Below, piece by piece: positions 5,203 through 57,847 of a DNA stretch of 64,000 nt (the stretch's first letter is position 1; every line of letters starts with the position of its first letter). The notes under the pieces were generated by a model. It ran no database searches, had not been told where the DNA came from, and was given only the letters and a program-made list of their open reading frames with translations. The position numbers and the translations under genes are program-made. The stretch is from Symbiodinium sp. CCMP2592 (lineage: Eukaryota > Sar > Dinophyceae > Suessiales > Symbiodiniaceae), in the NCBI GenBank assembly GCA_905221615.1, contig CAJNDT010003246.1, positions 84,501-148,500 on the forward strand. Direction: 5' to 3'.

Positions 5203-5673
5203 CTATGTGTTTTTCTGCTGTGGGCAGGCTGTGCCATCATGGCCTGCTCGTCGTTAGCTTCTCAGTTGGATGTCGAGTGTGGCCCCTCATATCAAGATGT
5301 CCGCTGCACGTACGGTGCGTGTTCGATACAGCTGAGGGCTGCTCGCAGCATCGCATGCCGCGAAGTTTCGGTCCATATCAGGTTGGGGCAGGTCGGTTGC
5401 TACTCAAGGCCTTTTCGCAGCGGTCTTTACTTACAGGTTCTGATCGTGTGCAGACAGGATTCACTGTCTTTCCCGCCCGGCAGAGCCCGGAGTCCCCGAC
5501 CGATTTGTTTCAAGGGATGCTGCACACGACAGCGTCCGAAATTCGTGGCCGCCATGCCTGGCACAGAGAGCCGTGCCTCGAGTGGTTTTGCTGCTGCCGT
5601 GCATCTTTCATGTTTCAACACCGTGGAAGTGGCCGTGGAGGGGACTGCTACTGCAAGTGCCCCGGAGCAACAG
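5203..5673 (+). CDS. Candidate 5' exon of copy 2
   Basis: Aligns with the copy 3 segment 20960-21349. The 3' part matches well and ends at a GT donor (caacag|gtaatg); the 5' part has diverged and has no clear signal anchor. Two frames stay open and neither is clearly preferred. It may be partly non-coding or degraded. Confidence 0.35.
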
Positions 5674-8600
5674 GTAATGTGAAGCAGAAAAGAATAGAGT
5701 TGATGTGTGAAGCTTTTCTGGGTTTGTTCAGTGTCTCATTGAATGCTGCCTCTCGCAGGTGATGTTGTCGCAGCGGTGAAGGCGTGCCTGGGCGAAGAAT
5801 TTGGGTGCAACCGGTCACCTCAGCTTTCCAGGAGTTCTGCTATGCATATCTAAACCCTAAACATCCCCAAACCCTAATCCCTAAACCCCGTTAAGCTTAG
5901 ATCTGAGGAAGTTGCCCGGAGACCCTTGGCATGGAAACGTCTTGCTGTCACGCGGCGCCCGGAAGTTCACGGAGACAGACGAGATGCCGCCTCAGACGCA
6001 GGCTGGCAACGAGTTCCTTGCGGGGAGCACTTGAGAAGATATCCCCTAGGCCTTCAATGCTAAACTCCTACAACCTAAACCCTAAACCCTAAACCCTAAA
6101 CCCTAATTCCACCACTTTGTGGTATCTCAGGTTGGCTCTGGCGAACTATGGCCGCTTACATTCAGCCGGCAGCCCGCTCCAAATCCCGACAGAGCTCAGC
6201 GGCATTACCATTCCGCAAATTCAGGCCGTTGAGATTTTCTTGGCCAGTTTGAGTCCACTGTGGCAAAGCGTTCCTTTGAGTGGCACCTGTCGACGAGGCC
6301 CTACTCGCCTTCATGCAAGGTCTGGTCCTTATGGCCTTTATGTTGTCCGTCACTGTCACTGCTGGCCTGCCCAACACTACTTGCTTTGCACACATCTGCC
6401 GTTGGCATCGCTTGCAATTCCTCAGTTGTGGCACATGTTCCGTTATGCAAGGTATGGTCCAGTGTTGGTTTGGCACGTTTGGTGCAGAGTGCGGGCTACC
6501 TCTGTCCTTTGAGTCCTTCAATCTGCGCCCTGGGTACATGTGAGCAGACGCTTTCGTAGCATCATCGCTTCATCGATGCGTATGCGTTGATGCCCGCAAC
6601 CTAGGTATCATGCAGACTACTGGATCTTGCAGCCGGCGACTGCAGGAGAGCGACGGAAGGGCTTCAGCGGCAAATGCATGCAGCAAAAGCCAAAGACAGA
6701 AAGCGGTTTTCGTGGCTACAGGAGCAGGTGGGCGCGGCTGCAGCTATGTGGAGTCCCGCGGCAGTCGCGTTGACCATTTTCTTGAAAGTAACCGCTTGAA
6801 AGTAACCGCATGCAGCAGAGGGTTCAGTCAACCCTCAGGGCGAACGCAGGCTTGTGCGTGCATTGCCCCGCATCTTAGGCTCGTGGCAGAGAGCATAGAA
6901 GCACAACGTCCCACGTGGTTTGTATCACATGCCTGGAAAGAGCCAATCGTGCCTTGGTTCATCTTCTTTGTTTGTGCTTTCTAGAGAAGCTTGAACCCTT
7001 CCAGAATGATTTCTGCACACTCTCAACTCTCCCGTGGCTGAAATCAGGTGCTGTTCCTGCGGTGCTTGCTCCGCCACGCTGCCGTGCGAGACTTGCGCGG
7101 AGATCCTGCGTACTGGGTCTGTGCCTATGCGAACAACCAGCATGCACCCAGGCAGCCTCGAACTGAAACACCAGTCCTTGACCGCTCAGAAAAACCCTCT
7201 CCCAAGGCACTCGGCGATGCCATCCCCACAGGCCGGGTGAGTCCTTGCCGCCTCGTCGTGATCGTCATGCCCGAGAGACCACATTCGACAGGTCCTGAAA
7301 GGAACTGATCACATGGTTCGTAGCATCTTTGTTGCACGGGTATCGTGATACTTATATGAAGAATACCATCCAACCGACAGATCCGCGGAAATCATCATTT
7401 TACTTGGCGATGATGCTCTGCCGTGGAGTGCTGCTGGTGCTGGATGCTGCAGCCACGCCCTTTCAGAGAATCTGGTGCCACCCGGCGTGTCTGCGTGGTG
7501 CTTCACGGTGCTTCCGATGTTTCGTCTGCTCTGCCATAAGCAGCTGCTCCAGCTGAGGCTGTTTCGAGGAAGCAATTGCTGCGGCCCGGCTGTTGTGATT
7601 GCTCTGCCTCTGCATCGCTCAGGTCGTTTAGATGAGTCTGAAGTTATAGATAGATGTTCACAGGAAGTTGAGTCTTGAATGTAGTGCTACCTTTAAGGGC
7701 CCTGTCGGAGGCCTCTCAAAGCTTCAAAAGTTTCAAAGCCCCGACCGCCTCCCCGGCAGGTTGAAAACTCCGCCAAGCTCTTTCTGGACGTGGCGGCGAC
7801 AAGCGGCGATATGGCCCACATCCTTACGGACCAGTGCGGGTAAATCTGTAGATTGTACAGCCCCGCTTGCCTAGGTCCTAGGTGTTGATTCCCAGCAAAT
7901 AGCGCATTTTTATGCGCAGTTGTTCTTGTCATCCTGCAGGATGGCCTTGCGGGAAATGAGGCCAAGTTGCTGCCCCTGCTGGGGCTACTTGCCAAATCCC
8001 GGCGTGAGGAACCTTTCCCCGCCAATTTACTGGAGCACGGACTCGGAGTCCGCATTGAGATTGCCGAGGCCTCCAGGGAGGAGGACAAGACACGAATCTT
8101 GAACAGCATTGCCTTCCCACGAGCAGGAACGCAGGCCCTGGATGAGGCACCAAAGGAGGAGCACGACAAGTATGGAGCCGTGAATCGGGCATTGAGGAGC
8201 CACTTTGCTTTGAGCAGCCTCTATGCATGCTACACTCGAGACACCGACCCAAGCAATTTTCTGGCTGCACTCCGTGTGGATGCTGCCCGCCTTTCCGTGC
8301 AGCTCTCATTGACTGGCTGCAAACACTTCAGAGATGCACAGATGCGCGCGCTCTTGGCTCATTTGCCAAGAACTCTTCTGTGCCTCCGCCTGGACCTTGG
8401 CCACACAGGCCTGCAGACCATCGCAGTGGACGGCTTTTGCTGCCAGCTGCGCACACTGCAGCTTCGCTTCTCAGGGGCATCGCTGCGAGAAGCTGTCGGC
8501 ATAGCAGCCCTCCTCGACACGGCCCAAGCTTCCTTGCTCCGTTTGGAGCTTTGGTTTGCAGCCTTGCCGATGCTTGAAGAGCTCAATCTCAGCGAAGCTT

Positions 8601-11600
8601 TGCTCCTTGCCTGCAAGATCTCAAACTGCATCGAAGACTCTTGAAAGACGCTTCGTAGCTTAGGCTGAAGCTCCGCTTGGAGGAGTTGTCTCTCCACGTC
8701 CAAGGGTGCCCCAAGGCCCTCGACCTGCTGCAATACGTTTCGTCGTGATAAAAAGGGGAGAAGGGACGGATACGGTTCCTACGGTTGAGATTTCGTGCTG
8801 GTTGAGGGTTGAGTGCTCCCTGAGAGGTTCCCCAAGCTTCGAAGCAGGCATTGCGCCTTGGCATGGCGATGTGTCTGTGCCCATGCAGTGCCCTCCATGT
8901 ATGCATCTCATTTAGCAGTGCGAAGTCGTTGGCAGCGAGGCACAATGCCGCCCGAAAGCTTCAGAGCCGTGACAAGGACTTGCAGATGTGGCTCTGCATC
9001 GAGGACTGCGCTCGGTGTTCTACCAGGGGTGATTAGCGACTAGCTGCAGCAGACGCAGACCTCTGGTCGGGAGGATGCAGCGACGTGGACGCAGCAGCTC
9101 CAGGCTCTGCTGCCATGGGATCGCATCCGGAAGTTGCAAGGCTTCCAAAGCCCGGGCCTCAGAGGTTCAAGATCAACGGCTTCCTTGCCGGCATTCCCTT
9201 TCCACTGCCTGCAGGCAGCGGCTCGGAGAAAGGGCAAAGCACGAGAACAGAATCCGAGATCAACCAGGAGCAACAACAAATTGCAACATCTTCCCTGGCA
9301 GAAACCCTAAACCCCAAGCCTGCCCTTGGAGCAGGACTTGCCGTTTCCATGCAGCCACGGGCGCTGCCCACGCTTCCATGCGAACCTGCCCTTTGGCTTC
9401 ATCCTTGTGCGAATGCCTGGTTATATAAGTGGCACGGTCCTTTCAGGAATGGATATTGCGACCAGCACTTCTTCTGCAGCCTCCGGCGGAGTGCATTCAA
9501 ATCCTTCCAAGAGGTCCGGCCCATGGCTGATCAGCTCGGTTCAAGGTTTATGTAGGTGCAAAGAAATCCCACGGCTTCTTGTTTGCTAGAGGCTCGGTGT
9601 TGGTCTGAGTTGGCTCTGATCTTCTTCGTGCAAGCAGCTGCCGACATCGAGTCCAGAGGCCAGCATCCGATCTGGTTTGGGGTGGACATTCAGGGAGCCT
9701 GCAAGGTTAGAAAAGCTGAAGCATCTGACCGAAACAAAAGAAGCAGCTTCGGTGATAGTGGCAGTTTGGGATACAAAGGCCTGCTGCTGCTGATCATGCT
9801 GTCTCTGCACCTTGACGACCATGTATACAGATTCGCCAGCATTTGCAAACCATGGCTAGGCCTTGAATTGTCCAACAGGCACGCAAAACATCCCAGGTAT
9901 CCGGTTCTGGTCTTTGGTGTGGCGAACGTGAGCGGCTTCTCTGTGTCTTGGCACTGTGAGAGTTAGCTTCCGGTGTATCCCCACTCTGCTACATTTGAGA
10001 CTCGCGGGACCATTTGAGGTCTCCTCGCTGTCCACGCTGTTGCTGGCTCTGCTGGTTGCCTCCTTCGCCTTCGCAAGTTTCCGTTTCGACCAGATGCAAC
10101 GGGCGGCACGGGAGTTCTCTTTGTCCTCGGAGGCTTTCTACTCGAAGGCACGCACGCTGCTGCAGTGCATGTAGGTACTCCCGTGGTCCTGTGCACACCA
10201 ACGCGCAACCATGGGGCCTATACCTGCGACACTGACAAAGTCGTGCACAGAGGATCTCCGCGCGCGCATGTGAGCAGGTGTTGGAGGATGACGGGCACCT
10301 GTCCCACACCTCGCTGGTCTTCGGTGTAGATGGGGAGAAATATCCGAGCGTGGACCAAGTGCGGCAGGAGCATGATTCCCCGACTTTCAGACGAAATGTA
10401 CAGTAGCAGAATTAGCCAGCAAGCAGAATGCAAGCATCCATCATACTCTAAGAAAGATGCAGTTCCTGGTCAGTTCTGGTCATAAACCTGCAGGAGACGG
10501 TGAGCGACTTGCAGCTTGGCTGCAGCTGCTTGCAGTGCTGCGCTCTTCAGCGGCTGCCCGAGGAAAAGCAGCTTTCTGTCCGCGCGGCAGCACCTTCCGA
10601 GCTTTGAGCTGCTTGGATTAGGGTTTAGAATTTAGGGTTTGGGGTTCCGGGTTTAGGGTGTCGGGAGAGCTTCGAAGGGCTGTGGGAGCTTGAGCTTGCT
10701 GGAGCATCTTCCCGAGGAGAGCGGTGCAGGAGGTTGTGAGGGCAGTGGATGCAGAAGGCATGGAAGCACGCCTGAAATGCGGAGATGAGGCTCTCCTTGC
10801 CTCTGAGTGCCAAGGCACAGGGGAAGTGTCGGGATACGTTGAATCTGAGTGACAACATATGAATTCAGGCCTTTACAAGTCTCGGCGGTTTTCAGGAGCT
10901 GTGGACATCTTGCAATATGAGATCTACTGCAAAGACATCCTGCACATGCGGCAAACATGGAACGAGCTGAGCAGGCCCGAACGGCCCCTGTGAGCCAGTC
11001 GCCCTGCATTTCATGTTTCGTCATCGTTCATCACCTTCGTCAGGGCTTTCCAGGGCGAGGAGCAGCCGATCCGCATCGTGGCCTTGCGAGACGGCTTCGC
11101 AGAAGAAGACAGCAAGCGAAGGTGCTGTGAAGTCGTGCTTTGCATCGAGGGCCGTGTGCTCAGTGAGGGTTGTCCGCGGTGCGCTGCGTGCTTTTTGCTC
11201 ACTTTGCAGCAAGAGGATACTTCGCTACCGTGCTGCTTTTGGAGCGGTCTTTGGATTCCGCAGAAAGGAAGCTTGCAGGCCTTTGCCGCATGGCTCCCCG
11301 GCTTGTGTTTGCGCACGTATGGCGAGCGCTCATAAATCCGCAAGTCAAGTTCTTCACCATGACCCGGACATCACTCCGTGATTTTTCTGTATCCAAGAGG
11401 TAAAGAGAAACAGAACGCAGGAGAACTGCAGAAGATTCTAAGGCACAGAATTTCGGCCTTCTGGTGGAGCCGCGACACAGCAGAGGCCAAGAAAGCAAGC
11501 AGGAAGCGAAGGCGAAGAGGTCTCCGAGACCTTCTCTTTGGCTTAGCATTATCCTGGGCCTGGTGAGGGCGACGGCGCTGCTGTGCAGCGGATATTTCGC

Positions 11601-14600
11601 CTTGCAGTACTCCCTGCGCTACGGGCCGCCGGAGCTGCGCGAGAGCCTGCCAGGGCTCGGTGCTCTGCTGAAGATTCAAGACGCAGAGGACAGATCCTGG
11701 TTCCAGGCAATCAGCTTGGCTCTTCCCTATGCCGTCCTTGTCCTTGTTTTCAGCACCTTGTCTAGAATCTGACCCAGACATGCAAGGGCTCCGGAGCTTC
11801 AATGTGTTTAGGGGGAGCTCGCTGCAGAGGTCTGTTGTTGCTCGATGGTATCGCAACCGTTGCCAGGTAGAGCTCAATTGAGAACAGAAATCTCATGTGG
11901 ACCAAAAGGGAAGAGCTTGCCAGGTTTTGATTGTCAGTACATTCACGAACAGTGAAAAACATGGACATTCGATCCTTTAGGCCATGAGAAATGTTCAGCC
12001 AAAGCAGCGGCAACAAATCGTACTTCTTGGACTTCGAAGCCGAATCCATGTCAACAAATCGTAGTTCGTAGTGCTGGGACACCGATTCGCGGCCAAAGCA
12101 ACGGCAGCAAAACTAACTTCATAGCACTGAGGCCTGAGGCACCGCTTCCAGGCCAAGACAGCGACAAGAAATCGTACTTCTTAGCACTAGAGCACGGCTT
12201 CGAGGCCAAAGCAACGGCAACAAATGTACTTCTTGGCACTGGGTCACCATTTCGCGGCCAAAGCAACAGCAAGAAATCGTACTTCTCAGCATTGGGGCAC
12301 TACTTCGAGGCCGATGCAGCGACAAGAAATCGTACTTCTTAGCACTAGAGTCACTAGAGCACGGCTTCGAGGCCAAAGCAACGGCAGCAAATGTACTTCT
12401 TGGCACTGGGGCAACACTTCGAGGCCAAAGCAACAGCAACCAATCGTACTTCTCAGCATTGGGGCGCTACTTCGAGACCGATGCAGCGACAAGAAATCGT
12501 ACTTCTTAGCACTAGAGCACGGCTTCGAGGCCAAAGCAACGGCAACAAATGTACTTTTTGGCACTGGGTCACCATTTCGCGGCCAAAGCAACAGCAACCA
12601 ATCGTACTTTTCAGCATTGGGGCACTACTTCGAGGCCGATGCAGCGACAAGAAATCGTACTTCTTAGCACTAGAGCACGGCTTCGAGGCCAAAGCAACGG
12701 CAACAAATGTACTTCTTGGCACTGGGTCACCATTTCGCGGCCAAAGCAACAGCAACAAATCGTACTTCTCAGCATTGGGGCACTACTTCGAGGCCGAAGC
12801 AGCGACAAGAAATCGTACTTCTTAGCACTAGAGCACGGCTTCGAGGCCAAAGCAACGGCAACAAATGTACTTCTTGGCACTGGGTCACCATTTCGCGGCC
12901 AAAGCAACAGCAACCAATCGTACTTCTCAGCATTGGGGCACTACTTCGAGACCGATGCAGCGACAAGAAATCGTACTTCTTAGCACTAGAGCACGGCTTC
13001 GAGGCCAAAGCAACGGCAACAAATGTACTTCTTGACACTGGGTCACCATTTCGCGGCCAAAGCAACAGCAAGAAATCGTACTTCTCAGCATTGGGGCACT
13101 ACTTCGAGGCCGAAGCAGCGACAAGAAATCGTACTTCTTAGCACTAGAGCACGGCTTCGAGGCCAAAGCAACGGCAACAAATGTACTTCTTGGCACTGGG
13201 TCACCACTTCGCGGCCAAAGCAACAGCAACCAATCGTACTTTTCAGCATTGGGGCACTACTTCGAGGCCGAAGCAGCGGCAAGAAATCGTACTTCTTAGC
13301 ACTAGAGCACGGCTTCGAGGCCAAAGCAACGGCAACAAATGTACTTCTTGGCACTGGGTCACCATTTCGCGGCCAAAGCAACAGCAACCAATCGTACTTT
13401 TCAGCATTGGGGCACTACTTCGAGGCCGATGCAGCGACAAGAAATCGTACTTCTTAGCATTGGGGCACCGCTTCGAGGCGATCGGTGTCATAAACGTTTC
13501 TGTCTGGTCCTTGGATGTCGGCACTTCAGATTGTTGAGACACAGAAGTCCCAAAGTGTCGGATGAATGATCCGCCGATAGGGAAGTTGAGCTGGGTTTAG
13601 ACCGTCGTGCGATAGGTCAGCTGTGTCTTATTGATGAATTTGAAGCTACGACATGCTACGACAATAATCGAAGCAAAGTACGAGAGGAACAACTGGTTAG
13701 TTTGAGGTCACGACCTTCTGCGGTGCCGGCGTCGGGTGTCCCGCAGGCCGACATAGCGGGTTTGGGCAGCGATATATCGGACGTGCTCAGAGTTCGTGTT
13801 AGGCTGCATTCTTTGGTATTTCTTTGGTTGCGCACAGTTCAGAAGGCAATCGCAGGTGAACGTTACGGGAGGAAGAGCGCGGACAACTACTCCAACAGAC
13901 GGTCCACATCCTTCAATTTTCAATTTTTGATGTCTTGTTTTCTTTATGAGCAGCAACAGCAGACCCTGGAGGCTGAAACCGTCCCAGATCATCTTTGAGC
14001 GGCACTTTGGAGTCCACGGCAACTGCTATGTTGTCAAGGCAGGGCTTGCGAAGCAAGAGTTTCTTGCAATCTTTGTTGGTGCGGCGCGACTTGAAGGTCG
14101 CACTGATCCAGATAATGACAGTGCTCCTGCAAGCCTTCGGGAAGGCGGGTTCTCACCATGTTCTCACCAATAGGACAGGGTGCCTCAGGTACTCCCCGAA
14201 TCTTCGAGGAGATACGCCATTTTCGCAGTAAGCACAATCCCGGACGTAAAGTTGCCCCCCGTGCCAGGTACCGCTTCTGAGAGGAACCGTCACGTTTGCA
14301 ATGTATCAGAACATCTCAGCAGCCTCGGTGCTGAAACGATGCTTCTGGATCTTCTATGTGCTGCTGACCTTCAACAGCCTGTTCCCGAGTATCCTGTTTG
14401 TGCGGCCAGATTCCCGCTGGTGTCGCTATGGCTCCTCGGAGTGAGCGAGACCGAGTGACGGTGAGGGGAAGTAGACAGTGCGTCCTCGTGCGGGGCACAA
14501 ATCCGAGGTGCTGCCGTCATGGATGTAGTCATGGATCTGGGATACATGCTCACCTACTTGCTCACTGTGGCCCCTTGCTGACGCGACAAGCAAGATCTAG

Positions 14601-19150: not shown

Positions 19151-20984
19151 CAGCAGTGGCAGCTGTCACACTATCCGGTTAACAGTCGCTGTGGTTTGTG
19201 GTGCGATTGTGTTTTGTGACTGCGGCCCCATCACAAAAGAGTTTCATTGGCGCCACTAGGATGGAAGCTTGAAAGATAGGTTGGATCAGGCCTGTTCCCC
19301 GTGTCACTGGAGGAAGCGGCTGCCTTGCTCGCGCCATGTAGGTCACCATATCATCTCGAGACTTTCCCCATATGCAGTAATTTTCTTTGCTCATTTTGAT
19401 CTCTGATTGATCGAGCGAAGCCGTCATAGTTAGGCCTCCCAGAAAGCTTCTGTGCAACGTCTCGCTGCGTCGAAAGCGCCGCCGTGGCGCTGGCTCAGGC
19501 ACCTTTGAGCTGAAGATGACTTTATATATTATCTTATTCGGGTTTAGAGGGATTAGGGTTTAGGGTTTCGGGTTTCTTATAGCGTCTATAGGAGTTTGGG
19601 GTTTCAGTGTCTTTGGTCCTGGAGGAGCCAGCAGGTTCTCACTCCAAGTGTACGTTTCAAGCGTATGAGGGATTGCGAAGAAGCCACAGAGCTTGTATCT
19701 GTAGGCGCCAGAGGTTGCAGTTCCCGTTTTAGGCTGGTCTGCACGGATTGTCAGGCTCAAGGCACAGAGCTTTGTTTCTCCACGGTTTAGATTCAAGAGC
19801 AGCGTATCCGACATAGCCCCCTAAACCCTGAACCCTTAAGCCCATAAACCCTACTGCCAGGCCGGCCTTATTGGTGTATGCATCTTCAGAAAACTTGGGT
19901 CTAGAAGGAGGGGATGATTTCAGTGGGATGTTCCGAATACGCCGAATCCGCGTTTTTATTGTTAGGCAGCTGTGTTCAATGATTCAATAAAGAGGGGGAA
20001 AGGATCAAGCGGGTTTTGCCTTAAGCTGCTATCGCTGCTTTTTTGGGGGTCCCGGTTCTGCTTTCAGCAGGATCTATACTTTGCTGGGGTGCGCCTCAAT
20101 GGATTTAAGAAGATGCGTCGGCCCAGGCCCGCAAAGGTGAACGAAGGGATTCTAGTTTGCCTCTGCCAGGAGGTCTTCCAAGTCGTAGCCGATGCGCGCG
20201 AACTTCTTGCGCAGAAGGCCCCGCGGTTGGGTGCTCCTTGATATCGGGGATGCTCCGCTTGCCTCTCAGCCCGAGTCGGAAAGATTGCGGGAAGCAGAAG
20301 TTGGGATCCAAGCTGAGGGTTTAGGGTTTAGGCTTAGGGACTAAAGAAAATCTCAAAGAATGACCTTCGGCAGGGAAGTACGTGCTGGGCCTCCCAACAG
20401 GCTCAATTTTAAGATTCTTAGGCTTGTAAATGAGAGCCGCTCCTCTTGTGCCAGAACCTTTACACCCTAAACCATAAATCCTCAAGACGAAGAGGCAAAG
20501 CCCGATACAATTTCCATAAACCCTGAATCCTGTATAGATATAGCCTCTAAACCCTAGACACTAGACTAAACCCTTGAACCTAGAGGGAGGCTTTTCAGTC
20601 CTTCCAAACACAGAGGCCCCAACCACAGGCTCCTCCTAGTACAGGAGTTCTGGCTGTACCTGCAGGTGGAAAAGAGCCCATTAAAAAAAACACAAAAACC
20701 CTTGACCCTGAGCCCTCTCCTCTTCTGCCAGAGCCTCGCGCAGAGTGCCGGAGGCTGTGGGCAGTTCGATAGCTCGACGAGACGGGTTGAACAAACCACC
20801 AAGAATGGATCAGCAAAAGGGTTTATATAGGGTATGTAGGGCTTAGGGTTTAGGCTACCAGCAATGAAGAAGATAAGAGAGAAGGAAGAACAGCTAGCGA
20901 AAACAGCAGAGACAGAAATGAAGCGATAAGCAACTCACAAAGAAACGCACACAGAACGATGTCTCCTTTCGGTTGTTTCAAAGA
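19151..20984. other. Spacer before copy 3, with a private ~210-bp block
   Basis: Patchy similarity to 3421-5199. A block at about 19600-19812 is absent from the copy 2 spacer (junction near 3850); its minus strand has a short open frame with no recognised family. CCCTAAA words occur near 19550, 19820, 20318 and 20525. No other gene seen. Confidence 0.5.
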
Positions 20985-21349
20985 ATGCGTTGGAGAACAG
21001 GCGGTGCCATCATTCTTCGTCGTCAGCTTCTCAGTTGGATGTCGGCTGCGGCATTGGGGATACTGGTGGCTGCACGCTTGGCACGTGCTTACTCCCGCTG
21101 GGAACTGGTCCGATTCATCGTGTGCCGCGAAGTTTTGGTCCAGATTAGCCGCCCGCAGAGCCCGGAGTCCCCCCAATTTATGTTTTGTACAGGCATGCTG
21201 CAGACGACAGCGTCCGAAATTCGTGGCGGGGCCGTGCCTGGCACAGAGAGCCGGGCCGCCGGTTTTGCTGCTGCCGTGCGACTTTCATTTTCCACCACCG
21301 TGGACGTGGCCGTGGAGGGGACTGCTACTGCAAGTGCCCCGGAGCAACA
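20985..21349 (+). CDS. First exon of copy 3: N-terminal anchor
   Basis: The frame runs from ATG through the hydrophobic stretch into YSRWELVRFIVCREVLVQI and a Ser/Thr/Ala-rich end (TTVDVAVEGTATASAPEQ). At the donor, copy 3 lacks one G compared with copy 2 (caaca|gttaag against caacag|gtaatg), so its splice phase may be shifted. Confidence 0.5.
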
Positions 21350-24300
21350 GTTAAGGTGAAGCAGAAAGCGTGCATGGATTTGATGTGATGCGTGAAACTC
21401 GTCGACCTGCGTGAAACACGTCGACCTGTCAAGTGTCTCACTGAACGCTGCCTCTTTGCAGGTGATGTTATCGCAGCGGTGAAGGCGTGCCTGGGCAAAG
21501 AATTTGGGTGCAACCGGTCACCTCAGCTTTACAGGAGTTCTGCTATGCATATCTAAACCCTAAACATCCCTAAACCCTAATCCCTAAACCCCGTTAAGCT
21601 TAGATCTGAGGAAATTGCCTGGAGACCCTTGGCATGGAAACGTCTTGCTGTCACGCGGCGCCCGGAAGTTCACGGAGACAGACGAGATGCCGCCTCAGAC
21701 GCAGTCCGGCAACGAGCTCCTTGCGGGGAGCACTTGAGAAGATATCCCCTAAGCCTTCGATGCTAAACTCCTACAACCTAAACCCTAAACCCTAAACCCT
21801 AATTCCACCACTTTGGGGCATCTCAGGTTGGCGCTGGCGAACTATGGCCGCTTACATTCAGCCGGCAGCCCGCTCCAAATCCCGACAGAGCTCAGCGGCA
21901 TTACCATTCCGCAAATTCAGGCCGTTGAGATTTTCTTGGCCAGTTTCAGTCCACCGTGGCAAAGCGTTCTGTTGAGTGGCACCTGTCGACGAGGCCCTAC
22001 TCGCCTTCATGCAAGGTCTGGTCCTTATGGCTGTTATGTTTGTTGTCCGTCACTGTCACTGCTGGCCTGCCCAACCCTACTTGCTTTGCACACATCTGCC
22101 GTTGGCATCCCTGTGCAATTCCTCCGTTATAGCACATGTTCCACATGCGCAGCGTACGCTCAGCAGTTATGCAAGGTATGGTCCAGTGTTGGTCTGGCAC
22201 GTTTGGTGCAGAGTGCGGGCTACCTCTGTCCTTTGAGTGCTTCAATCTGCGCCTTGGGTACATGTGAGCAGACTCTTTCGTAGCATCATCGCTTCATCGA
22301 TGCGTATGCGTTGATGCCCGGAACCTAGGTATCATGCAGACTACTGGATCTTGCAGCCGGCGACTGCAGGAGAACGAAACAGAACATGACGGAAGGGCTG
22401 CAGAGCTGCAGAGGTGGCAAATGCACGCAGCAAAAGCCAAAGACAGAAAGCGGCTTTCGTGGCTACAGGAGCAGGTGGGCACGGCTGCAGCTATGTGGAG
22501 TCCCGCGGCAGTCGCGTTGACCATTTTCTTGAAAGTAACCGCTTGAAAGTAACCGCATGCAGCAGAGGGTTCAGCCAACTCTCAAGGCGAATGCAGGCTT
22601 GTGCGTGCATTGCCCCGCATCTTAGGCTCGTGGCAGAGAGCATAGAAGCACAACGTCCCACATGGTTTGTATCACATGCCTGGAAAGAGCCAATCGTGCC
22701 TTGGTACATCTTGTTGTTTGTTGTGTTCTCTAGAGAAGCTTGAACCCTTTCAGAATGATTTCTGCACACTCTCAACTCTCCCGTGGCTGAAATCAGGTGC
22801 TGTTCTTGCGGTGCTTGCTCCGCCACGCTGCCGTGCGAGACTTGCGGGGAGGTCCTGCATACTGGGTCTGTGCCTATGCGAATAACCAGCACGCACCCAG
22901 GCGGCCTTGAGCTAGGGGATTCTTCTTATAATTTTATGGAACTATGGGCCTTCATAAATAATTAGAACAGGGTATGGGGATTCCTTCTTACAACTATATC
23001 GAATACATTACACCCAAGTTATTAACTAGCCTATTCTAAGTATGAAGGCCCCTATACCTTAAGCCGGAATAACCTACCCTTTTTAGGGTTCCTTGTTATG
23101 ATTTCTTATATACGTCCTTAAAAAAGGTAGGTTCTTCCGGCTTAAGGTATTGCCAAAGAGTTCCACGCAAAACCCTCTACCAAGGCACTGGGCGATGCCA
23201 TCCCAAGAGGCCGGGTGACTCCTGGCCGTCTCATGGCTAAGGTTTTTTTAAAGTAAGGTCCCTTTGATACCTTATAACCTACCAAAACCTACTTTTTTTG
23301 GTAGGTTTAGGGTTTAGGGTTTGTTTTTTTAAAGTAAGGTCCCTTTGATACCTTAACCTAGCAAAACCTACTTTTTTGGTAGGGTCCCTATCAATCCCAT
23401 ATCAGGGGTTTTAATATGAGAACCTACAAAAAGGTAGGGTTTGGTCGGTTAAGGTAGGGATTTTACTATAAGGGTGCCGGACTATATTGGACCTAAAATG
23501 GACCCTGATTCAGAGAACCACATTCGGCAAATCCTGTAATGAATTGATCACCGGGTTCGTAGCAGTCTCCGCTGCACGGGTACCGTACGAGAGACCCTTC
23601 AGACGAACACCATCCAACCGACCGCAGTCGAATCTGATCGGCATGACCCCAACCAACACATGCGTCCGACAGATCCGCGGAAATCATCATTTTACTCTGC
23701 GATGATGCTCTGCCGTGGAGTGCTGCTGGTGCTGGATGCTGCGGCCACACCCTTTCAGAGAATCTGGTGCCACCCGGCGTGTCTGTGTGGTGCTTACGGT
23801 GCTTCCGATGTTCCGTCTGCTCCGCCATAAGCTGGTTGCTCCAGCTCAGGCTGTTTCGAGGAAGCAATTGCTGCGGCTCGGCTGTTGTGATTGCTCTGCC
23901 TCTCAAAGCTCAGGTCATCTAGATGAGTCTGAAGTCAATCATCTTCACAGGAAGTTTGTATACAGTTGTGAGAGCGCTTTCTGCGCCTCCCCTGTTTCCC
24001 AGGTTGAAAACTCCGCCAAACTTTTTCTGGACGTGGCAGCGACAAGCGGCGATGTGGCCCACATCCTTACGGACCGTGGGTAAGCGTGGGTAAATCTGTA
24101 GATTGTTGGAGAGCCCTAGGGTCTAGGTGTTGCTTTTCAACAGGTGGCACATGTTTACGTGCAGTTGTTCTTCTCATTCTGCAGGATGGCCTTGCGGGTA
24201 AGGAGGCCAAGTTGCTGCCCCTGCTGGGGCTACTTGCCAAATCCCGGCGTGAGAAGCTTTTCCCCGCCAATCTGCTGGAGCACGGACTCGGAGTCCGCAT

Positions 24301-27300
24301 TGAGATTGCCGAGGCTTTCAGGGAGGAAGACAAGACACGAATCTTGAACAGCATTGCCTTCCCACGGGCAGGAACGCAGGCCCTGGATGAGGCACCACAG
24401 GAGGAGCACGACAAGTACGGAGCCGTGAATCGGGCATTGAGGAGCCACTTTGCCTTGAGCAGCCTTTATTCATGCTACGCTCAAGACGCAGACCCGACCA
24501 ATTTCCTGGCTGCACTCCGTGCGGACGTTGCCCGCCTTTCCGTGCAGCTCTCGTTGACTGGCTGCAAATACTTCAGAGATGCACAGATGCGCGCGCTGTT
24601 GGCTCATTTGCCAAGAACTCTCTTGTGCCTCCGCCTGGACCTTGGCCACACAGGCCTGCAGACCATCGCAGTGGACGGCTTTTGCTGCCAGCTGCGCACA
24701 CTGCAGCTTCGCTTCTCCGGGGCGTCACTGCGAGAAGCTGGCGGCATAGCAGCCCTCCTCGACACAGCCCAAGCTTCCTTGTTCCACTTGGAGCTTTGGT
24801 TTGCAGCCTTGCCGATGCTTGAAGAGCTCAATCTCAGCGAAGCCTTGCTCCTTGCCTGCAAGATCCCAAGCTGCGTCGAAGACTCTTGAAGATGCTTCGT
24901 AGCTGAGGCTGAAGCTGCGCTTGGAGGAGTTGTCTCTCCACGTCCAAGGGTGCCCCAAGGCCCTCTATCTGCTGCAATACGTTTCGTCGTGATAAACAGG
25001 GGAGAAGGGACGGATACGGTTCCTACGGTTGAGATTTCGTGCTGGTTGAGGGTTGAGTGCTCCCGAGAGGTTCCCCAAGCTTCGAAGCAGGCATTGCGCC
25101 TTGGCATGGTGATGTGTCTGTGCTCATGCAGTGCCGCAGTGCCGTATGCATCTCATTTGGCAGTGCAGCAGTGAGGCACAATGCCGCCCGAAAGCTCCAG
25201 AGCCGTGACAAGGACTTGCAGATGTGGCTCTGCATCGAGGACTGTGCTGGGTCTTCTCCCAGGGGATGATTAGCGACTAGCTGCAGAAAACGCAGACCTC
25301 TGTCTGGTGCGGGAGGATGCAGCGACGTGGACGCAGCAGCTCGAGGCTCTGCTGCCCAAGCGCTCAAAGCCGCTGCATCGCCTATGTTTCCGAGGCCCGG
25401 GCCTCAGAGGTTCAAGATCAACGGCTGCCTTGCAGGCGTCCCGTTTCCACTGGTGCGTCAGGCACCGCCTCGGAGAAAGGGCAAATCACGAGAGCAGAAT
25501 CCGAGATCAACCAGGAGCTACAGATTGCAACATCTTCCCTAACCCCTTAACCCTTAGCCCTTAATCCTAAACCCTAAGCCCCAGCCCTGGAGCAGGACTT
25601 GCCGTTTCCATGCAGCCACGGGTGCTGCCCACGCTTCCATGCGAACCTGTGCTTTGGCTTCATCTTTGTGTGAATGCCTGGTTATGTAAGTGGGCGCGGT
25701 CCTTTCAGGAATGGATATTGCGACGAGCACTTCTTCTGCAGCCTCCGGCGGAGTGTCTTCAAATCCTTCCAAGAGGTCCGGCCCATGCCTAATTAGCTCG
25801 GTTCAAGGTTTGTGTAGTCGCAAAGAAGTCCTACGGCTTCTTGTTTGCCAGAGGCTCGGTGTTGGTCTGAGTTGGCTCTGATCTTCTTCGTGCAAGCAGC
25901 TGCCGACATCGAGTCCAGAGGCCAGCATCCGATTTAGGGTTTAGGGGTTTAGGGTTCGAAGGCAAAACCTGCGCAACGGCTAGCCCACAAAATCAGAAAA
26001 GCCCAAGCATCCGACCGAAAAAAAAAGCAGCTTCGGTGATAGCTGCGGTTTGGGATACAAAGGCCTGCTGCTCCTGATTCTGCTGTCCCTGCACCTTGGC
26101 GAACATGTATACAGGTTCGCCAGCACTTTCGAGCCATCACAAGGCCTTGAACATGCATCGTCCAAGTGGCATTGTGCATGCAAAACATCCCAGGTATCCG
26201 GTTCTTGTCCTTGGCGTGGCGAACATGAGCGGCTTCTCCGTGTCCTGGCACTGTGGGAGTTGACCTCTGGAGTATCCCCACTCTGCTGCATGCGGGACTC
26301 GCCGGACCTTTTGAGGTCTCTTCGCTGTCCACGCTGTTGCTGGCTCTGCTGATTGCCTCCTTCTCCTTCGCAAGTTTCCGTTTCGACCAGATGCAACGCG
26401 CGGCACGAGAGTTTTCCCTGTCCTCGGAGGCTTTCTACTCGAAGGCACGCACGCTGCCAGAATGCATATACAAGTTAAGTGGGTACTCCCGTAGTCCTGT
26501 GCCTACCAGCAACAACGGGGCCCCTGCGACACTGGCGAAGTCATGCACAGAGGTGATGCCCAAATCTCCGTGCATCAGCAGGTGTTGGAGGATGACGGCC
26601 ACCTGTCCCACACCTCGCTGGTCTTCGGTATAGATGGGGACAAATATCCAAGCGTGGACCAAGTTCGGCAGGAGCATGATTCCCCGACTTCCAGACAACA
26701 TGTACAGTAGCAGAATTAGCCAGCAAGCAGAACGCAAGCATCAATCAAGCATACCCAAACAATTCTGCAGGAGACGGTGAGCGACTTGCAGCTTGGCTGC
26801 AGCTCCGTGCAGTGCTCCGCTCCTCAGCGCCTGCCCGAGGAAACCCAGCTTTCTGTCCGCGCGGCAGCACCTCCCGAACTTTGAGCTGCTTGGACTGTTG
26901 TGTGGAGAGCTTCGCAGGGCCTGCGTGGGAGCTTGAGCATGCTTGAGCATCTTCCTGAGGAGCGCGGTGCAGAAGGTTGTGAGGGCAGTGGATGCAGAAG
27001 GCATGGAAGCACGCCTGAAGTGTGGGGATGAGGCTCTCCGTGCTTCCGAGTGCCAAGGCACAGGGGAAGTGTCGGGATACGTTGAATCTGAGTGACAACA
27101 TATGAATAGTGGCCCTTACAAGTCTCGGCGGTTTTCAGGAGCTGTGGACATCTTGCAATATGAGATCTACTGCAAAGATATCCTGCACATGCGGCAAACA
27201 TGGAACGAGCTGAGCAGGCCCGAACGGCCCCTGTGAGCCAGTCGCCCTGCATTTCATGTTTCGTCATCGTTCATCACCTTCGTCAGGGCTTTCCAGGGCG

Positions 27301-30300
27301 AGGAGCAGCCGATCCGCATCGTGGCCTTGCGAGACGGCTTCGCAGAAGAAGACAGCAAGCGAAGGTGCTGTGAAGTCGTGCTTTGCATCGAGGGCCGCGT
27401 GCTCAGTGAGAGTGGCGAGTCGTGCGGCGTGTGTTTTTTGCTGACTTTGCAGCAAGGCTACTTCGCTACTGTGCTGCTTTTGGAGCGATCTTTGGATTCC
27501 GCAGAAAGGAAGCTCGCAGGCCTCTACCGCATGGCTCTCCGGCTTGTGTTTGCGCACGTATGGCGAGCGCTCATAAATCCGCAAGTCAAGTTCTTCACCA
27601 TGACCCGGACATCACTCCGTGATTTTTCTGTATCCAAGAGGTAAAGAGAAACAGAACGCAGGAGAACTGCAGAAGATTCTAAGGCACAGAATTTCGGCCT
27701 TCTGGTGGAGCCGCGACACAGCAGAGGCCAAGAAAGCAAGCAGGAAGCGAAGGCGAAGAGGTCTCCGAGACCTTCTCTTTGGCTTAGCATTATCCTGGGC
27801 CTGGTGAGGGCGACGGCTCTGCTCTGCAGCGGGTATTTCGCCTTACAGTACTTCCTGCGCTACGGGCCGCCGGAGCTGCGCGAGAGCCTGCCAGGGCTTC
27901 GTGCTCTGCTGAAGATTAAAGACGCGGAGGACAGATCCTGGTTCCAGGCAATCAGCCTGGCCCTTCCCTATGCCGTCCTTGTCCTTGTTTTCAGCACCTT
28001 GTCTAGAATCTGACCCAGACATGCAAGGCTTCGGAGCCTCAATGTGTTTCGCAGGGAGCTCTCTTTCGTTGCGGTGTCCCAAGGTAGAGAATGGAACAGA
28101 AATCTCATGTGGACCAAAAGGGAAGAACCTGCTAGGCTTTGATTTTCAGTACGAACACGAACAGTGAAAAGCATGGACTTGCGATCCTTTAGTGCCTGAG
28201 AAATGTTCGGCCGAAGCAACGGCAACAAATCGTACTTCTTAGACTCCGACCCGAAACAACTGCAACAAATCGTACTTCCTGGCGCTGGGGCAACGTTTCG
28301 CACCACTTCAAGGCCCAAACAACGGCAACAAATCGTATTTCTTAGCACTGGGGCACTGCAGCGAGGCCAAAGCCAAGCAAAGGCATCAAATCGCACGTCT
28401 TGGCGCAGGGGCACCACTTCGAGGCCAAAGCAACGGCAATAAACCGTACTTGCTAGCACTGAGGCCAAAGCAACGGCACCAAGTCGTACTTGGTAGTATT
28501 GGAGCATTGTTTATATTGTTTCGAGGCCAAAGGAACGGCAACAAATCGCACGTCTCAGCACTGGGGCACTGCAACGGCAGCAAATCGTACTTTTTCGCAC
28601 TAGGGTCTCACTTGCTAGCACTGGAGAAGCAACGGCAACAAATACCTGTTAACACTGGGGCACCACTTGGAGGCCAAAACAACGGCAACAAATCGTACTT
28701 CTCAGCATTGGGCACTGCTTCGAGGCTAGTGGTGTCAGAAAAGTTGCTGTTTGAGCCTTCGATGTCGGCACTTCATATTTTAGAGACACAGAAGTCCCAA
28801 AGCGTCGTATTCATGGCCCGCTGGTAGGAAAGTTGAGCTGGGTCTAGACCGTCGTGAGACAGGCTCAGGTCAGCTGTGTCCTATTGATGAATTTGAAGCT
28901 ACGACATGCTACGACAATAATCGAAGCAAAGTACGAGAGGAACGCTTCGTTGAAATAGGACTTGCCTTGCGAAACAACTTGTTAGCTTGAGGTTACGACC
29001 TTCTGCGGTGCCGGCGTCGGGTGTCCCGCAGGCCGACATAGCAGATTTGTGCAGCAATAGATCGGACGTGCTCAGAGTTCGTGTCAGGCTGCATTCTTTG
29101 GTTGCGCAAGTTCAGAAGGCGAGCGCAGGTGAAGGTTAGGGGAGGAATAGCGCGGACAACTAAGCCAACAGACGGTCCAAATCCTTCAATTTTTAATTTG
29201 TGATGTCTTGTTTTCTTTATGAGCAGCAACAGCAGACCATGGAGGCTGAAACCGTCCCAGATCATCTTTGAGCGGCACTTTGGAGTCCACGGCAACTGCT
29301 ATGTTGTCAAGGCAGGGCTTGCGAAGCAAGAGTTTCTTGCAATCTTTGTTGGTGCGGCGCGACTTGAAGGTCGCACTGATCCAGATAATGACAGTGCTCC
29401 TGCAAGCCTTCGGGAAGGCGGGTTCTCACCAATGGGACAGGGTGCCTCAGATACTCCCCGGATCTTCCTTCGGGGAGGTACGTCATGTTCGAAGTACGCT
29501 TTCGAATCCATGCAATCCAGGACGTAAAGTTGCCCCCCTGGCAGGTACCGCTTCTGGGAGGAACTGTCACCTTTGCAATGTATCAGAACGTCCCAGCAGC
29601 CTCGGTGCTGAAACGATGCTTCTGGATCTTCTATGCGCTGCTGACCTTGAACAGCCTGTACCCAAGTATCCTCTTTGTGCGGCCAGATTCCCGCTGGTGT
29701 CGCTATGGCTCCTCGGAGTGAGCGAGACCGAGTGACGGTGAGGGGAAGTGTAGACGGTGTGTCTTCCTGCAGGGGACAAAGCCGAGGTGCTGCCGTCATG
29801 GACATAGGCATGGATCTGGGATACATGCTCACCTACTTGCTCACCGTGGCTCCTTGTTGACATGAAACTGCAAGATCTAGAGAAGGCCATGCCGAGAGTC
29901 AGTTAAGCACGGCTCAGGTGACCGCCATGTCCGAGCTGACGCTGGAGACGGCAGTGCGTGGCAACTTCGGGGATGCGGAGGAGCTGGACCTGAGTAACAG
30001 CAGCTTGAGCAGAGTTGAGCACGAATGTAAGTGCCACCAGCACTTTCGGGCAGTTCGCGTCGTGTGCACTGAGGCATCAGCCCAACCTTCGCTTTCCCTT
30101 CTGACATCCTGCAGTTCCTGGCGGTGTACATCAGCCTTGCGCACACCTGTTGTGCCTGCCGCTCTGTCGAGCGTGCCAAGGATCTAGGCGAAAGCTCTGC
30201 AGAGCTTGTGGAGCCAAAGCAGTCGAAGCGACCGATCATTCACCGCACGGTCTTTCCTGCCCGTCATGGCCGGCTGGTGCTTCGATGCCTCAAGGCACTG

Positions 30301-31449
30301 TACTCTCCCATGCTGCTCCTGGTGCTCTTCCTGCTTCTTCGCTCTCCGGACGTGTACCCTGGCCACTCCGGCGACTTCAGCTGCTTCCCGTGCCGCTGCT
30401 CTCAGGAGGCGAGGCGCCTGGAAAGCTGCCGATTAGCAGCCGTACTCCGACAGCCGGAGCTGGCCCTGCCCGGCGTTCACAGCATCGCCCAAGGAGCTTT
30501 CGACCCCTTAGGCTGCTATGTGCGGCGCCTATCCCTCGCCAACAACACGTTGATCTCGCTGCCGGCGAAACGGTTCCGGCGCCTGAGCTGCCTGGAAGTC
30601 CTGGACCTGGGCAGAGGACACCTCGAGCACCTGGAGGATGAGGCCTTCGAGGGCCTGGCGCAGCTGCGCCTCCTGTCACTCAGCGAAAACAATATCACCG
30701 ACCTCCCGACCCAGGTTCTCAAACCGCTGCTCGGCTTGGAGCAGCTCCTTCTAGGCGGCAAGACCGCCAAAAACGGCTGGGGGAGAGAAATCGTGCGTGG
30801 GAACCGGTTAGCGAGCTTGCCTGACTTCACGCATAACCAGTGGCTGGAAGTGCTGGATGTCAGCAAGAACGAGCTGACGGCCTTGAAGGACGGCACGTTT
30901 GCGCAGCTCCACAGACTCCGAGTCCTGGACATCAACCACAACAAGATCTGCAATGTCTCCGCCCACGCCTTTGCAGGCTTAACCTCCCTGCAGTCGCTGG
31001 ATTTGAGCTCCATCAGGCTGGCAGAGCTCCCGGAATTGGTCTTCCAGGGCTTGACCTCCCTCAAGAGGCTGGATTTGGATGGTAACGACCTGGCAGAGCT
31101 CCCGGAGAAGGTCTTCCGGGGCTTGACCTCCCTTGAGATGCTGGATTTGTGCTGGAACAGGCTGGCAGAGCTCCCAGAAAATGTCTTCCAGGGCTTGACC
31201 TCTCTTGAGTTTCTGGATTTGCGCTGGAACAGGCTGGCAGAGCTCCCGGAAAATGTCTTCCAGGGCTTGACCTCTCTTGAGTTTCTGGATTTGGGCTGGA
31301 ACAGGCTGGCAGAGCTCCCGGAAAATGTCTTCCAGGGCTTGACCTCCCTTCAGTGGCTTGTGTTGTACAACAACACGCTGGCAGAGCCGGTGAGGCGCTG
31401 TGTTGAGGCCACCTTGACCTGTGAGAACTGCAGCTGCCAGGCTTCTTGA
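20985..31449 (+). CDS. Receptor-like SHAW/transmembrane/LRR gene, copy 3 (multi-exon span)
   Basis: Paralogue of copy 2, about 10.5 kb. The start is placed at the ATG at 20985, which opens MRWRTGGAIILRRQLLSWMS and a hydrophobic AAALGILVAARLARA, a good signal anchor or signal peptide. Exon order, lengths and phases match copy 2 for at least ten exons. It differs by only six regular LRRs in the last exon, a much shorter intronic satellite, two foldback-type insertions in the SHAW-domain introns, a TTTAGGG replacement inside one exon and a possible in-frame stop near 25793. It could be a working gene with altered exons or an early pseudogene; the intact, well-conserved last exon argues against long decay. 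Confidence 0.6.
21462..21735 (+). CDS. Copy 3 exons DVIAAVKACLG and GDPWHGNVLL
   Basis: Counterparts of 5759-5831 and 5901-6031, separated by a short intron with CCCTAAA words (21555-21595). Peptides are preserved with conservative changes (EEFG/KEFG; AGNEFL/SGNELL). Confidence 0.5.
21827..22546 (+). CDS. Copy 3 exons: hydrophobic segment and charged helix
   Basis: Matches 6131-6806. The second part reads RAAELQRWQMHAAKAKDRKR, then the hydrophobic AAAMWSPAAVALTIFLK. Small indels separate the copies in the first part (near 22036-22165). Confidence 0.5.
22626..22719 (+). CDS. Copy 3 SHAW-motif exon
   Basis: 94 bp. Encodes RPTWFVSHAWKEPIVPWYIL and ends at ttt|GTtgtg, in phase 0 with the exon at 22797. 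One codon longer than in copy 2, so the reading frame is kept. Confidence 0.75.
22797..22902 (+). CDS. Copy 3 ANNQH-motif exon
   Basis: Encodes VLFLRCLLRHAAVRDLRGGP and AYWVCAYANNQHAPR. A ~245-bp inserted block begins just after the exon, in the intron. Confidence 0.7.
22915..23158. mobile_element. Nested foldback (MITE-like) insertion, copy 3 only
   Basis: Absent at the matching point in copy 2 (near 7155-7190). The inner element at about 23055-23150 has inverted ends CCTTAAGCCGGAAtAACCTACC-type against its complement. An outer pair (GGGCCTTCATAAATAA / TATGAAGGCCC) surrounds other AT-rich sequence. No coding capacity. Non-autonomous foldback elements are the simplest reading. Confidence 0.65.
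23238..23480. mobile_element. Second AT-rich insertion with duplicated block, copy 3 only
   Basis: Contains two copies of a ~60-base block (AAAGTAAGGTCCCTTTGATA, then CTACTTTTTTGGTAGG) on either side of a TTTAGGG pair, and several short inverted pairs (ACCTACC/GGTAGGT). No equivalent in copy 2. Confidence 0.55.
23673..23775 (+). CDS. Copy 3 exon GVLLVLDAAATPFQRIWC
   Basis: Counterpart of 7381-7478. The SHAW-domain core is fully preserved (one Leu to Ser change in SSFYSAMM). Confidence 0.7.
24003..24071 (+). CDS. Copy 3 exon VENSAKLFLDVAATSG, GA donor
   Basis: 69 bp. Ends acg|GAccg, again a GA donor in phase with DGLAGKEAKLL at 24185. Confidence 0.7.
24185..24861 (+). CDS. Copy 3 long RILNSIA/LRR-like exon
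   Basis: 677 bp, open throughout and about 95% identical to copy 2 by eye. Changes include ASREED to AFREED, KHFRD to KYFRD and AVGI to AGGI. No stop and no frameshift, so this part is under coding constraint or very recent. Confidence 0.77.
24908..24980 (+). CDS. Copy 3 LRR-like exon LRLEELSLHVQG
   Basis: Joined through a 46-bp GA-AG intron. KALD of copy 2 is KALY here. Confidence 0.63.
25155..25400 (+). CDS. Copy 3 exons RKLQSRDKDLQMW and REDAATWTQQLEALL
   Basis: Counterparts of 8920-9036 and 9059-9220. The second reads DLCLVREDAATWTQQLEALL without interruption, so copy 3 keeps the better frame at this point. Confidence 0.5.
25732..25808 (+). CDS. Copy 3 counterpart of the 99-bp exon, possible stop
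   Basis: Covers the 3' part of the segment matching 9447-9545. In the frame reading EHFFCSLRRSVFKSFQEVRP a TAG follows at about 25793. The alternative MDIATS frame stays open. Confidence 0.35.
25890..25992 (+). pseudogene. Exon ADIESRGQHP interrupted by TTTAGGG, copy 3
   Basis: Matches 9637-9707 up to CATCCGAT, then TTTAGGG-type sequence (25932-25955) and about 35 further bases replace the copy 2 exon end and donor. The exon is probably skipped or lost here. Confidence 0.5.
26047..26460 (+). CDS. Copy 3 membrane-segment exons
   Basis: GYKGLLLLILLSLHLGEHVY at the 5' end, YPVLVLGVANMSGFSVSW in the middle and LSTLLLALLIASFSFASFRF at the 3' end match three copy 2 exons (9764-10170). Hydrophobicity is conserved despite substitutions, which supports membrane helices. 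Confidence 0.55.
26551..26693 (+). CDS. Copy 3 exon VLEDDGHLSHTSLVFGIDG
   Basis: Reads AQISVHQQVLEDDGHLSHTS, then LVFGIDGDKYPSVDQVRQEH. The 5' limit differs from copy 2 by small indels and is approximate. The GA donor candidate is ttcca|GAca. Confidence 0.55.
27139..27360 (+). CDS. Copy 3 exon pair DILQYEIYCKDIL / AFQGEEQPIRIV
   Basis: Exons 27139-27232 and 27287-27360 are the same lengths as in copy 2 and nearly the same in sequence. The 54-bp GT-AG intron (27233-27286) matches in length too. Confidence 0.72.
27457..28013 (+). CDS. Copy 3 exons YFATVLLLERSL and two-helix exon
   Basis: Exons 27457-27640 and 27662-28013 carry the same peptides and phases as copy 2, joined by a very short intron (21 bp by the best-fitting AGs). 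That is too short for a normal intron, so the segment may be read through or spliced at other sites. Reading straight on in the first frame reaches TAA at 27643, so some removal is needed. Confidence 0.6.
28200..28735 (+). repeat. Short, degenerate version of the intronic satellite
   Basis: About ten diverged ~50-bp monomers (CAACAAATCGTACTTCTTAG-like, CGAGGCCAAAGCAACGGC-like) without the 158-bp higher-order period seen in copy 2. Confidence 0.85.
29219..29848 (+). CDS. Copy 3 exons: FERHFGVHG, FWIFYALLTLNSL, MDLGYMLTYLL
   Basis: Three exons (about 29219-29430, 29545-29707, 29787-29848) equivalent to 13946-14569, with the same GC donors at 29708 and 29849. Helix changes are conservative (YVLLTFNSLF to YALLTLNSLY). 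Confidence 0.65.
29918..30022 (+). CDS. Copy 3 exon SELTLETAVRGNFGDAEEL
   Basis: 105 bp. Ends cac|GAatgtaagt. The GTAAGT begins at 30027 but gives a phase that does not fit the LRR exon, so GA is preferred. Confidence 0.73.
30115..31449 (+). CDS. Last exon of copy 3: membrane helix plus six regular LRRs
   Basis: 1335 bp, open from ctgcag| to TGA. Same opening (FLAVYISLAHTCCACRSVE), membrane helix (LKALYSPMLLLVLFLLL), Cys cap and irregular LRRs as copy 2, then only six FxGLTSL repeats (LAELPENVFQGLTSLEFLDL type) and the cap PVRRCVEATLTCENCSC. The last three regular repeats are nearly identical in sequence. Copy 3 therefore lacks the 3' repeat block that copies 1 and 2 share. Confidence 0.87.
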   Translation, partial: FLAVYISLAHTCCACRSVERAKDLGESSAELVEPKQSKRPIIHRTVFPARHGRLVLRCLKALYSPMLLLVLFLLLRSPDVYPGHSGDFSCFPCRCSQEARRLESCRLAAVLRQPELALPGVHSIAQGAFDPLGCYVRRLSLANNTLISLPAKRFRRLSCLEVLDLGRGHLEHLEDEAFEGLAQLRLLSLSENNITDLPTQVLKPLLGLEQLLLGGKTAKNGWGREIVRGNRLASLPDFTHNQWLEVLDVSKNELTALKDGTFAQLHRLRVLDINHNKICNVSAHAFAGLTSLQSLDLSSIRLAELPELVFQGLTSLKRLDLDGNDLAELPEKVFRGLTSLEMLDLCWNRLAELPENVFQGLTSLEFLDLRWNRLAELPENVFQGLTSLEFLDLGWNRLAELPENVFQGLTSLQWLVLYNNTLAEPVRRCVEATLTCENCSCQAS

Positions 31450-53160: not shown

Positions 53161-53283
53161 TACTTAAAGGATCATGGGACTTAGTAACTAGGGTTATAAT
53201 TAGGGTAACTATACTTATAACTACTTATAACCCAATTAAGGTACTTATAACCTTACTTACTAAGTCCCATGATCCTCCAAGTA
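53161..53283. mobile_element. Foldback element, family A
   Basis: About 123 bp, best-preserved copy with TACTT...AAGTA ends. Confidence 0.87.

Positions 53284-57528: not shown

Positions 57529-57847
<319 letters not shown>

Follow-up and report, generated by a model that had tools for sequence, protein, structure and literature searches.

A 64,000-nucleotide stretch of the genome of the dinoflagellate Symbiodinium sp. CCMP2592 (positions 84501-148500 of contig CAJNDT010003246.1, here C3246; hereafter the window) holds one gene in three tandem copies, A, B, and C, that probably encodes a large polytopic membrane receptor with a Toll-like mode of working in reversed order. By sequence, the polypeptide runs from an N-terminal region through a domain with the motif WFVSHAW (SHAW), a RILNSI region, and about seven hydrophobic helices to a solenoid of 'typical' leucine-rich repeats (LRRs) with Cys caps. 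Searching the whole genome (1.098 Gb in 5383 contigs), we compared five family members (n = 5): the window copies, an intronless paralogue on contig C3924, and an intron-rich fifth paralogue on contig C42 that is collinear with the family.

The intronless paralogue (C3924:101535-107102, minus strand) is a single open frame of 1856 codons, and in tblastn the RILNSI exon and the membrane/LRR exon of copy B both matched inside it. Its order is N-terminal region, SHAW (WFVSHAW at 205), RIWCCFEE (285), RILNSIA (372), hydrophobic helices, and LRRs, and it ends without the Cys C-cap present in the window copies. We call it a putative retrocopy because, and only because, its introns are missing; no spliced-leader relics (21-nt sequence, at most 4 mismatches) were found in the seven regions scanned.

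The protein of this frame, our reference for residue numbers, was aligned to A, B, C, C42, and six controls with our own spliced-alignment program, which penalises stops, prefers GT over GC and GA donors, and leaves the base after AG unweighted. We found scores of 3160.5 for A, 3226 for B, 3207 for C, and 3680 for C42. Residues 34-1215 scored 2683.5 against B, compared to 359.5 for the reversed protein, 325, 388, and 341.5 for shuffled protein, 308.5 for reverse-complement DNA, and 234.5 for unrelated window DNA. The model of copy B has 40 introns with dinoflagellate-type borders, no stop, and no frameshift. GC was the commonest donor (A 27/38, B 26/40, C 26/41, C42 22/49) despite the program's preference for GT, and G followed AG in 32/38 introns of A, 35/40 of B, 34/41 of C, and 35/49 of C42 vs 190/729 AGs in B's region. 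The GC/GA-AG introns and the gene content point to a dinoflagellate. For Symbiodiniaceae, a figure of 25-74% for GC/GA-AG intron borders is given in PMC11453091.

Copy B and C42 have 17 intron positions with phase in common; 5000 random trials gave 0.55 on average and never more than 5. The junction at 11.8-14.2 kb, which the earlier note had held doubtful, is an intron between residues 1060 and 1061, and exons and intron phases run on across it in A, B, C, and C42. Since the C3924 frame passes from SHAW through the hydrophobic helices to the LRRs without interruption, it supports both the single-transcript model of the earlier note and the coupling of these three parts in one gene family. It is nearly certain that SHAW to LRR is a single gene.

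Hydropathy (threshold 1.6) gave nine segments for A and nine for B (of which two per copy fall in soluble parts), six in C (one in a soluble part), and seven each in C42 and C3924, suggesting approximately seven membrane helices. The 557-residue membrane core occurs in at least 18 places in the genome, all listed ones within the five members; the place lists for this core and for the SHAW motif are lower bounds. The core had no match in Pfam (residues 600-1260) or among PDB sequences.

The SHAW domain and its probable likeness to TIR domains

Judged from structural models, SHAW likely has a divergent TIR-like fold. TIR was the nearest fold, and TIR chains prevail in both VIA lists. The first six structures in Foldseek were plant TIRs, SARM1 and AbTir were among the structural matches, and deoxyribosyltransferases filled 10 of the 50 rows in the structure list; with the first SHAW model, E was above 0.001 and the list was mixed. 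In TIR NADases the Glu sits in W-C-x-x-E, within the helix that follows the third strand. This motif is invariant in 17/17 aligned SHAW domains, its Glu being a putative counterpart of that of TIR; of the 23 SHAW frames read (L039 among the 23), 18 reach the motif, all with W-C-x-x-E, and five stop or diverge earlier.

Sequence-profile searches gave SHAW no family name. Pfam names neither SHAW nor the membrane core, and its scan of the 17 domains at E<=1 found no TIR family (STIR clan) match. Two segments from the C3924 frame, 567 and 661 residues long, matched nothing in PADLOC or NCBIfam, a PDB sequence search with the N-terminal piece found nothing, and the nine-row profile A1 drew four unrelated PDB sequences (E 0.37-5.3). 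None of the 22 TIR_2 places in the genome lies on the contigs of the SHAW matches, and a profile comparison of SHAW with in-genome TIR_2-type open reading frames (ORFs) was not significant. Hence, the structure and profile searches proposed in the earlier note yielded a nearest fold and no Pfam name.

SHAW could instead be a different module, of Rossmann/flavodoxin type, or an enzyme akin to the deoxyribosyltransferases, in which case the protein would be no Toll-like signaller. The absent Pfam match, the Foldseek E values and mixed first list, the failed profile comparison, and the deoxyribosyltransferase rows all lean this way; we consider it rather unlikely, since TIR chains prevail in both lists and W-C-x-x-E is without exception in the aligned rows. 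TIR and deoxyribosyltransferase folds both carry a catalytic Glu, so an enzymatic reading would survive a non-TIR outcome.

We found 48 match rows for SHAW in the genome by tblastn, of which 13 fall on the five family members. Elsewhere its partners are ankyrin repeats, RI-type LRRs, or ephrin-receptor-like/FG-GAP modules, and because long open frames (L033, L034, L035, L036, and L040) join it to such modules, SHAW appears to serve this genome as a general signalling module. The coupling of SHAW to LRRs described in the earlier note stands, and its being special to that combination does not. Three SHAW places (C2149:8876, C2149:33823, and C3824:47636) have identical scores, which suggests recent duplication or assembly redundancy. 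The genome also has a TIR ORF of the usual kind above the TIR_2 cut-off (L041:1306-1956) and one just below it (L047:1390-2661) with matches to TIR-1 and SARM1 (E 2e-4 to 7e-4). A search of a prokaryote genome collection and of IMG/VR returned 5 and 61 peptide-pattern stretches, respectively, none confirmed; with one pattern per collection, this is weak evidence of absence there. We considered a ubiquitin-like N-terminus and a middle segment of RelA/SpoT type, but Pfam gave neither any support and we do not claim them.

The LRR surface and the proposed mode of action

The LRRs of each window copy lie in one open frame (A 1016, B 788, and C 458 codons) and end in a Cys-rich cap. They have the layout of typical-class extracellular LRRs, namely 24-residue LxxLxLxxNxLxxLPxxxF units with Cys caps. 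We counted 29 unit starts in A, 19 in B, and 6 in C, with one irregular 37-residue unit in B; C3924 has 10 strict 24-residue units. The search with the last exon, which the earlier note had advised, matched the LRR family (LRR_8, E 4.9e-165 in B). The best PDB sequences were ALS, LGR5, and LGR4, with TLR3 lower among the best 60 of 312; TLR3, TLR7, and TLR8 are all among the matches, and in the best 60 a variable lymphocyte receptor (VLR) appears solely within an LGR4 hybrid. Hence, the LRRs, which the earlier note had called lymphocyte-receptor-like, have relatives of animal-ectodomain type, and no cassette assembly was seen.

For the position test we kept only units of exactly 24 residues (A 20/28, B 14/18, and C 4/5; 27 distinct DNA units). 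At positions 13, 14, 16, 18, 19, and 21, which we take from the LRR consensus to be solvent-facing around the LxLxxN strand, pN was 0.425 and pS 0.202; at the remaining positions pN was 0.056 and pS 0.176. With a stricter motif filter, the concave-face comparison per copy gave 2.46 (1.43-5.19) for A and 2.82 (1.78-6.15) for B, the bootstrap ranges being indicative only since units of one array are not independent, and 1.32 for C (5 units), 0.96 for C42 (4 units), and 0.68 for C3924 (10 units). The concave face thus varies in A and B, where the LRR surface looks diversified; this is the part of the earlier note's 'diversified recognition receptor' that stands directly, and the receptor role is a reading of the sequence.

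That this is a membrane LRR protein with a structural role (adhesion, cell wall, or other) and no part in signalling is unlikely. LRRs are generic binding scaffolds, and near-identical units with 29, 19, and 6 unit starts fit variation by unequal crossing-over; against this, amino-acid change clusters at concave positions with scaffold positions kept, and the TIR-like domain is better conserved than most other parts (dN/dS 0.12 for A-C and 0.10 for B-C, with A-B too alike there).

With a TIR-like domain joined to a fast-changing LRR surface, the protein resembles a Toll-like receptor in reverse order. In the mechanism that we propose, the LRR end would lie outside the cell and the TIR-like end in the cytosol. 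The concave face would bind ligands, most probably a molecule on the surface of microbes or of partner cells, and its residues would diversify in two ways, through substitutions that change amino acids and through 24-residue units being gained or lost. Ligand binding would gather the TIR-like domains in the cytosol, and the signal would pass via a putative NAD-directed activity (the invariant Glu of W-C-x-x-E) or TIR-TIR assembly.

To our knowledge, little is settled about the molecular means by which algal symbionts and bloom-forming dinoflagellates recognise microbes, partners, or one another. A TIR-like membrane protein with a fast-evolving LRR face is a concrete recognition candidate with testable predictions: NAD cleavage, and ligand binding by the concave face. 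Among the titles listed in our literature searches none deals with such a protein, which does not prove that none has been published. More tentatively, dinoflagellates may have a Toll-like system of their own, in which SHAW, as a divergent TIR superfamily, would serve as the shared cytosolic output of many sensors (ankyrin, RI-LRR, and ephrin-receptor-like/FG-GAP); the window family would be its multi-pass, reversed-topology LRR receptor, a young tandem array with the ligand face under diversifying selection.

The tandem array and its constraint

Self-comparison showed that B (5.6-17.15 kb) and C (21-31.45 kb) both extend from the SHAW part as far as the stop of the LRR exon and are collinear over most of their length (82-89% nucleotide identity). 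Copy A leaves its tail in the window; with 30 kb of upstream contig added, it extends from SHAW to LRR between about window -9.4 kb and 1490, is 86-91% identical to B in the main blocks, and has an outlying 5' piece near -18.5 kb. The repeat extends 3' of the LRR exon (1619-3850 vs 17347-19603, 94% identical), and among the places listed, contig C3246 has no SHAW-motif or membrane-core place beyond A, B, and C. Exons WFVSHAW, WVCAYANNQH, GVLLVLD..RIW, and RILNSIA follow in identical order in the three copies. Self-comparison, exon order, and spliced alignment hence bear out the two complete copies and end of a third in the earlier note, as well as its exon order and motifs, with one correction: a GC-donor intron interrupts the element read as ending RIWC, which goes on as CFEEAIA beyond it, giving WCCFEE. 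Exons before about residue 100 are weak models in all copies.

Table 1. Positions of copies A, B, and C in the window (residues as in the C3924 protein)
Feature	Position	Strand	Basis or remark
Copy A, 3' part of LRR exon, Cys cap, stop	1..1490	+	exon start at window -1559
Copy B, small N-terminal exons to SHAW, residues 36-191	5590..6752	+	spliced alignment; low confidence before about residue 100
Copy B, exon LVAESIEAQRPTWFVSHAWKEPI	6879..6948	+	same exon in A, C
Copy B, exon ..YWVCAYANNQH	7048..7143	+	spliced alignment
Copy B, exon ..GVLLVLDAAATPFQRIW	7381..7476	+	spliced alignment
Copy B, exon completing RIWCCFEEAIA, TIR-like W-C-x-x-E motif	7558..7580	+	spliced alignment
Copy B, long exon, DGLAG..RILNSIA.. 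to LRR-like stretch	7940..8601	+	60% identical to C3924
Copy B, exons, first membrane helices and ~200-residue soluble segment, residues 691-1060	9592..11752	+	alignment, hydropathy
Copy B, intron with 158-bp satellite	11753..13706	+	C3924 frame uninterrupted here
Copy B, exons, further membrane helices, residues 1061-1214	13707..14710	+	spliced alignment
Copy B, last exon, last membrane helix, Cys-rich N-cap, LRRs, Cys C-cap, stop	14785..17150	+	
Copy C, N-terminal exons, residues 40-191	21008..22499	+	low confidence before about residue 100
Copy C, exon WFVSHAW	22626..22695	+	spliced alignment
Copy C, exon YWVCAYANNQH	22797..22892	+	spliced alignment
Copy C, exon GVLLVLD..RIW	23673..23768	+	spliced alignment
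Copy C, exon CFEEAIA	23850..23872	+	spliced alignment
Copy C, exon with RILNSIA	24185..24846	+	spliced alignment
Copy C, exons, membrane helices, residues 691-1214	25854..29999	+	spliced alignment
Copy C, last exon, last membrane helix, N-cap, LRRs, Cys C-cap, stop	30074..31449	+	

The copies are under constraint, with dN/dS among A, B, and C of 0.34-0.47 at dS 0.10-0.18 over residues 103-1490; against C42 and C3924, dS is near saturation. SHAW is among the best conserved parts. By segment, dN/dS reached maxima of 0.72 (551-690), 0.79 (956-1060, with 0.08 for B-C), 0.71 (1215-1327), 0.67 (1351-1490), and 0.77 on few changes (103-191), and these segments may be less constrained or poorly modelled in some pairs. 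Decaying pseudogenes are improbable: copy C has one alignment frameshift (within 21611-21735, a weak N-terminal exon), B has its irregular unit, and several segments have dN/dS of 0.5-0.79 in some pairs, whereas the aligned codons are without stops and the overall ratio among these young copies is 0.34-0.47.

A reading suggested by the ORF lists, two adjacent genes (SHAW and membrane-LRR) co-duplicated as a unit around an intergenic region taken for an intron, drew on in-frame stops soon after the RILNSI exon (B 8642 and C 24887) and on the 2-kb satellite-bearing gap in B, and was rejected as scarcely credible because these stops are intronic (the TGA at 8642 lies in the intron after 7940..8601), C3924 reads through both parts as one frame, exons and phases continue through the gap in all four intron-bearing members, and all 18 places listed for the membrane core, a lower bound, lie in members that also have SHAW.

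The satellite has 8.4 copies of 158 bp (12138-13479), with degenerate relatives in the same intron of C (28208-28726) and of A. A dispersed repeat of about 125 bp (39177-39301, 40240-40363, 41190-41315, 44752-44861, 46329-46458, and 53160-53287) occurs in either orientation. It is partly palindromic, most of its copies are 88-96% similar, and it resembles a MITE- or introner-like element. The window also has a GTA trinucleotide array (57539-57847, 103 units), a CTA array (39435-39620), and, along its whole length, interstitial telomere-like CCCTAAA/TTTAGGG tracts, the last also within and between gene copies.

Comparison with known systems

By their defining layouts, the family falls outside Toll-like receptors, NLRs, and VLRs. 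Like VLRs, it has concave-face variation of capped 24-residue LRR units; unlike them, it has long cytosolic and membrane parts, and its variation lies between germline copies and units. A VLR gene is incomplete in the germline and is completed from LRR cassettes, whereas the LRRs here lie in one open frame. Plant TIR-NLRs share an N-terminal TIR-type domain and a C-terminal LRR, with membrane helices here in place of NB-ARC/NACHT; the whole 1856-aa C3924 frame had no NB-ARC/NACHT match in Pfam, LRR families alone being above cut-off.

With SARM1 and bacterial TIR NADases the family shares a fold resemblance and a Glu in a W-C-x-x-E-like helix, NAD cleavage being putative here, and it is without the ARM/SAM domains of SARM1. 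An atlas of eukaryotic TIRs (preprint, PMC13142454) reports, in the parts consulted, several uncharacterised eukaryotic clades and a few SARM1-like dinoflagellate sequences, and describes there no membrane protein with a TIR-like N-terminus and an LRR C-terminus. Its starting point was a set of six Pfam models; SHAW matched none of these here, and the iterative search of the atlas may reach further.

In its working mode the family appears most like animal Toll-like receptors, which also join a typical-class LRR ectodomain through the membrane to a TIR-type domain. Toll-like receptors have the LRR N-terminal, one membrane helix, and the TIR C-terminal; here the TIR-like domain is N-terminal and outside Pfam models, the LRR is C-terminal, and the several (~7) helices form a core without Pfam or PDB relatives. 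If our reading is true, dinoflagellates would have evolved the LRR-membrane-TIR design of Toll-like receptors independently, in the opposite order.
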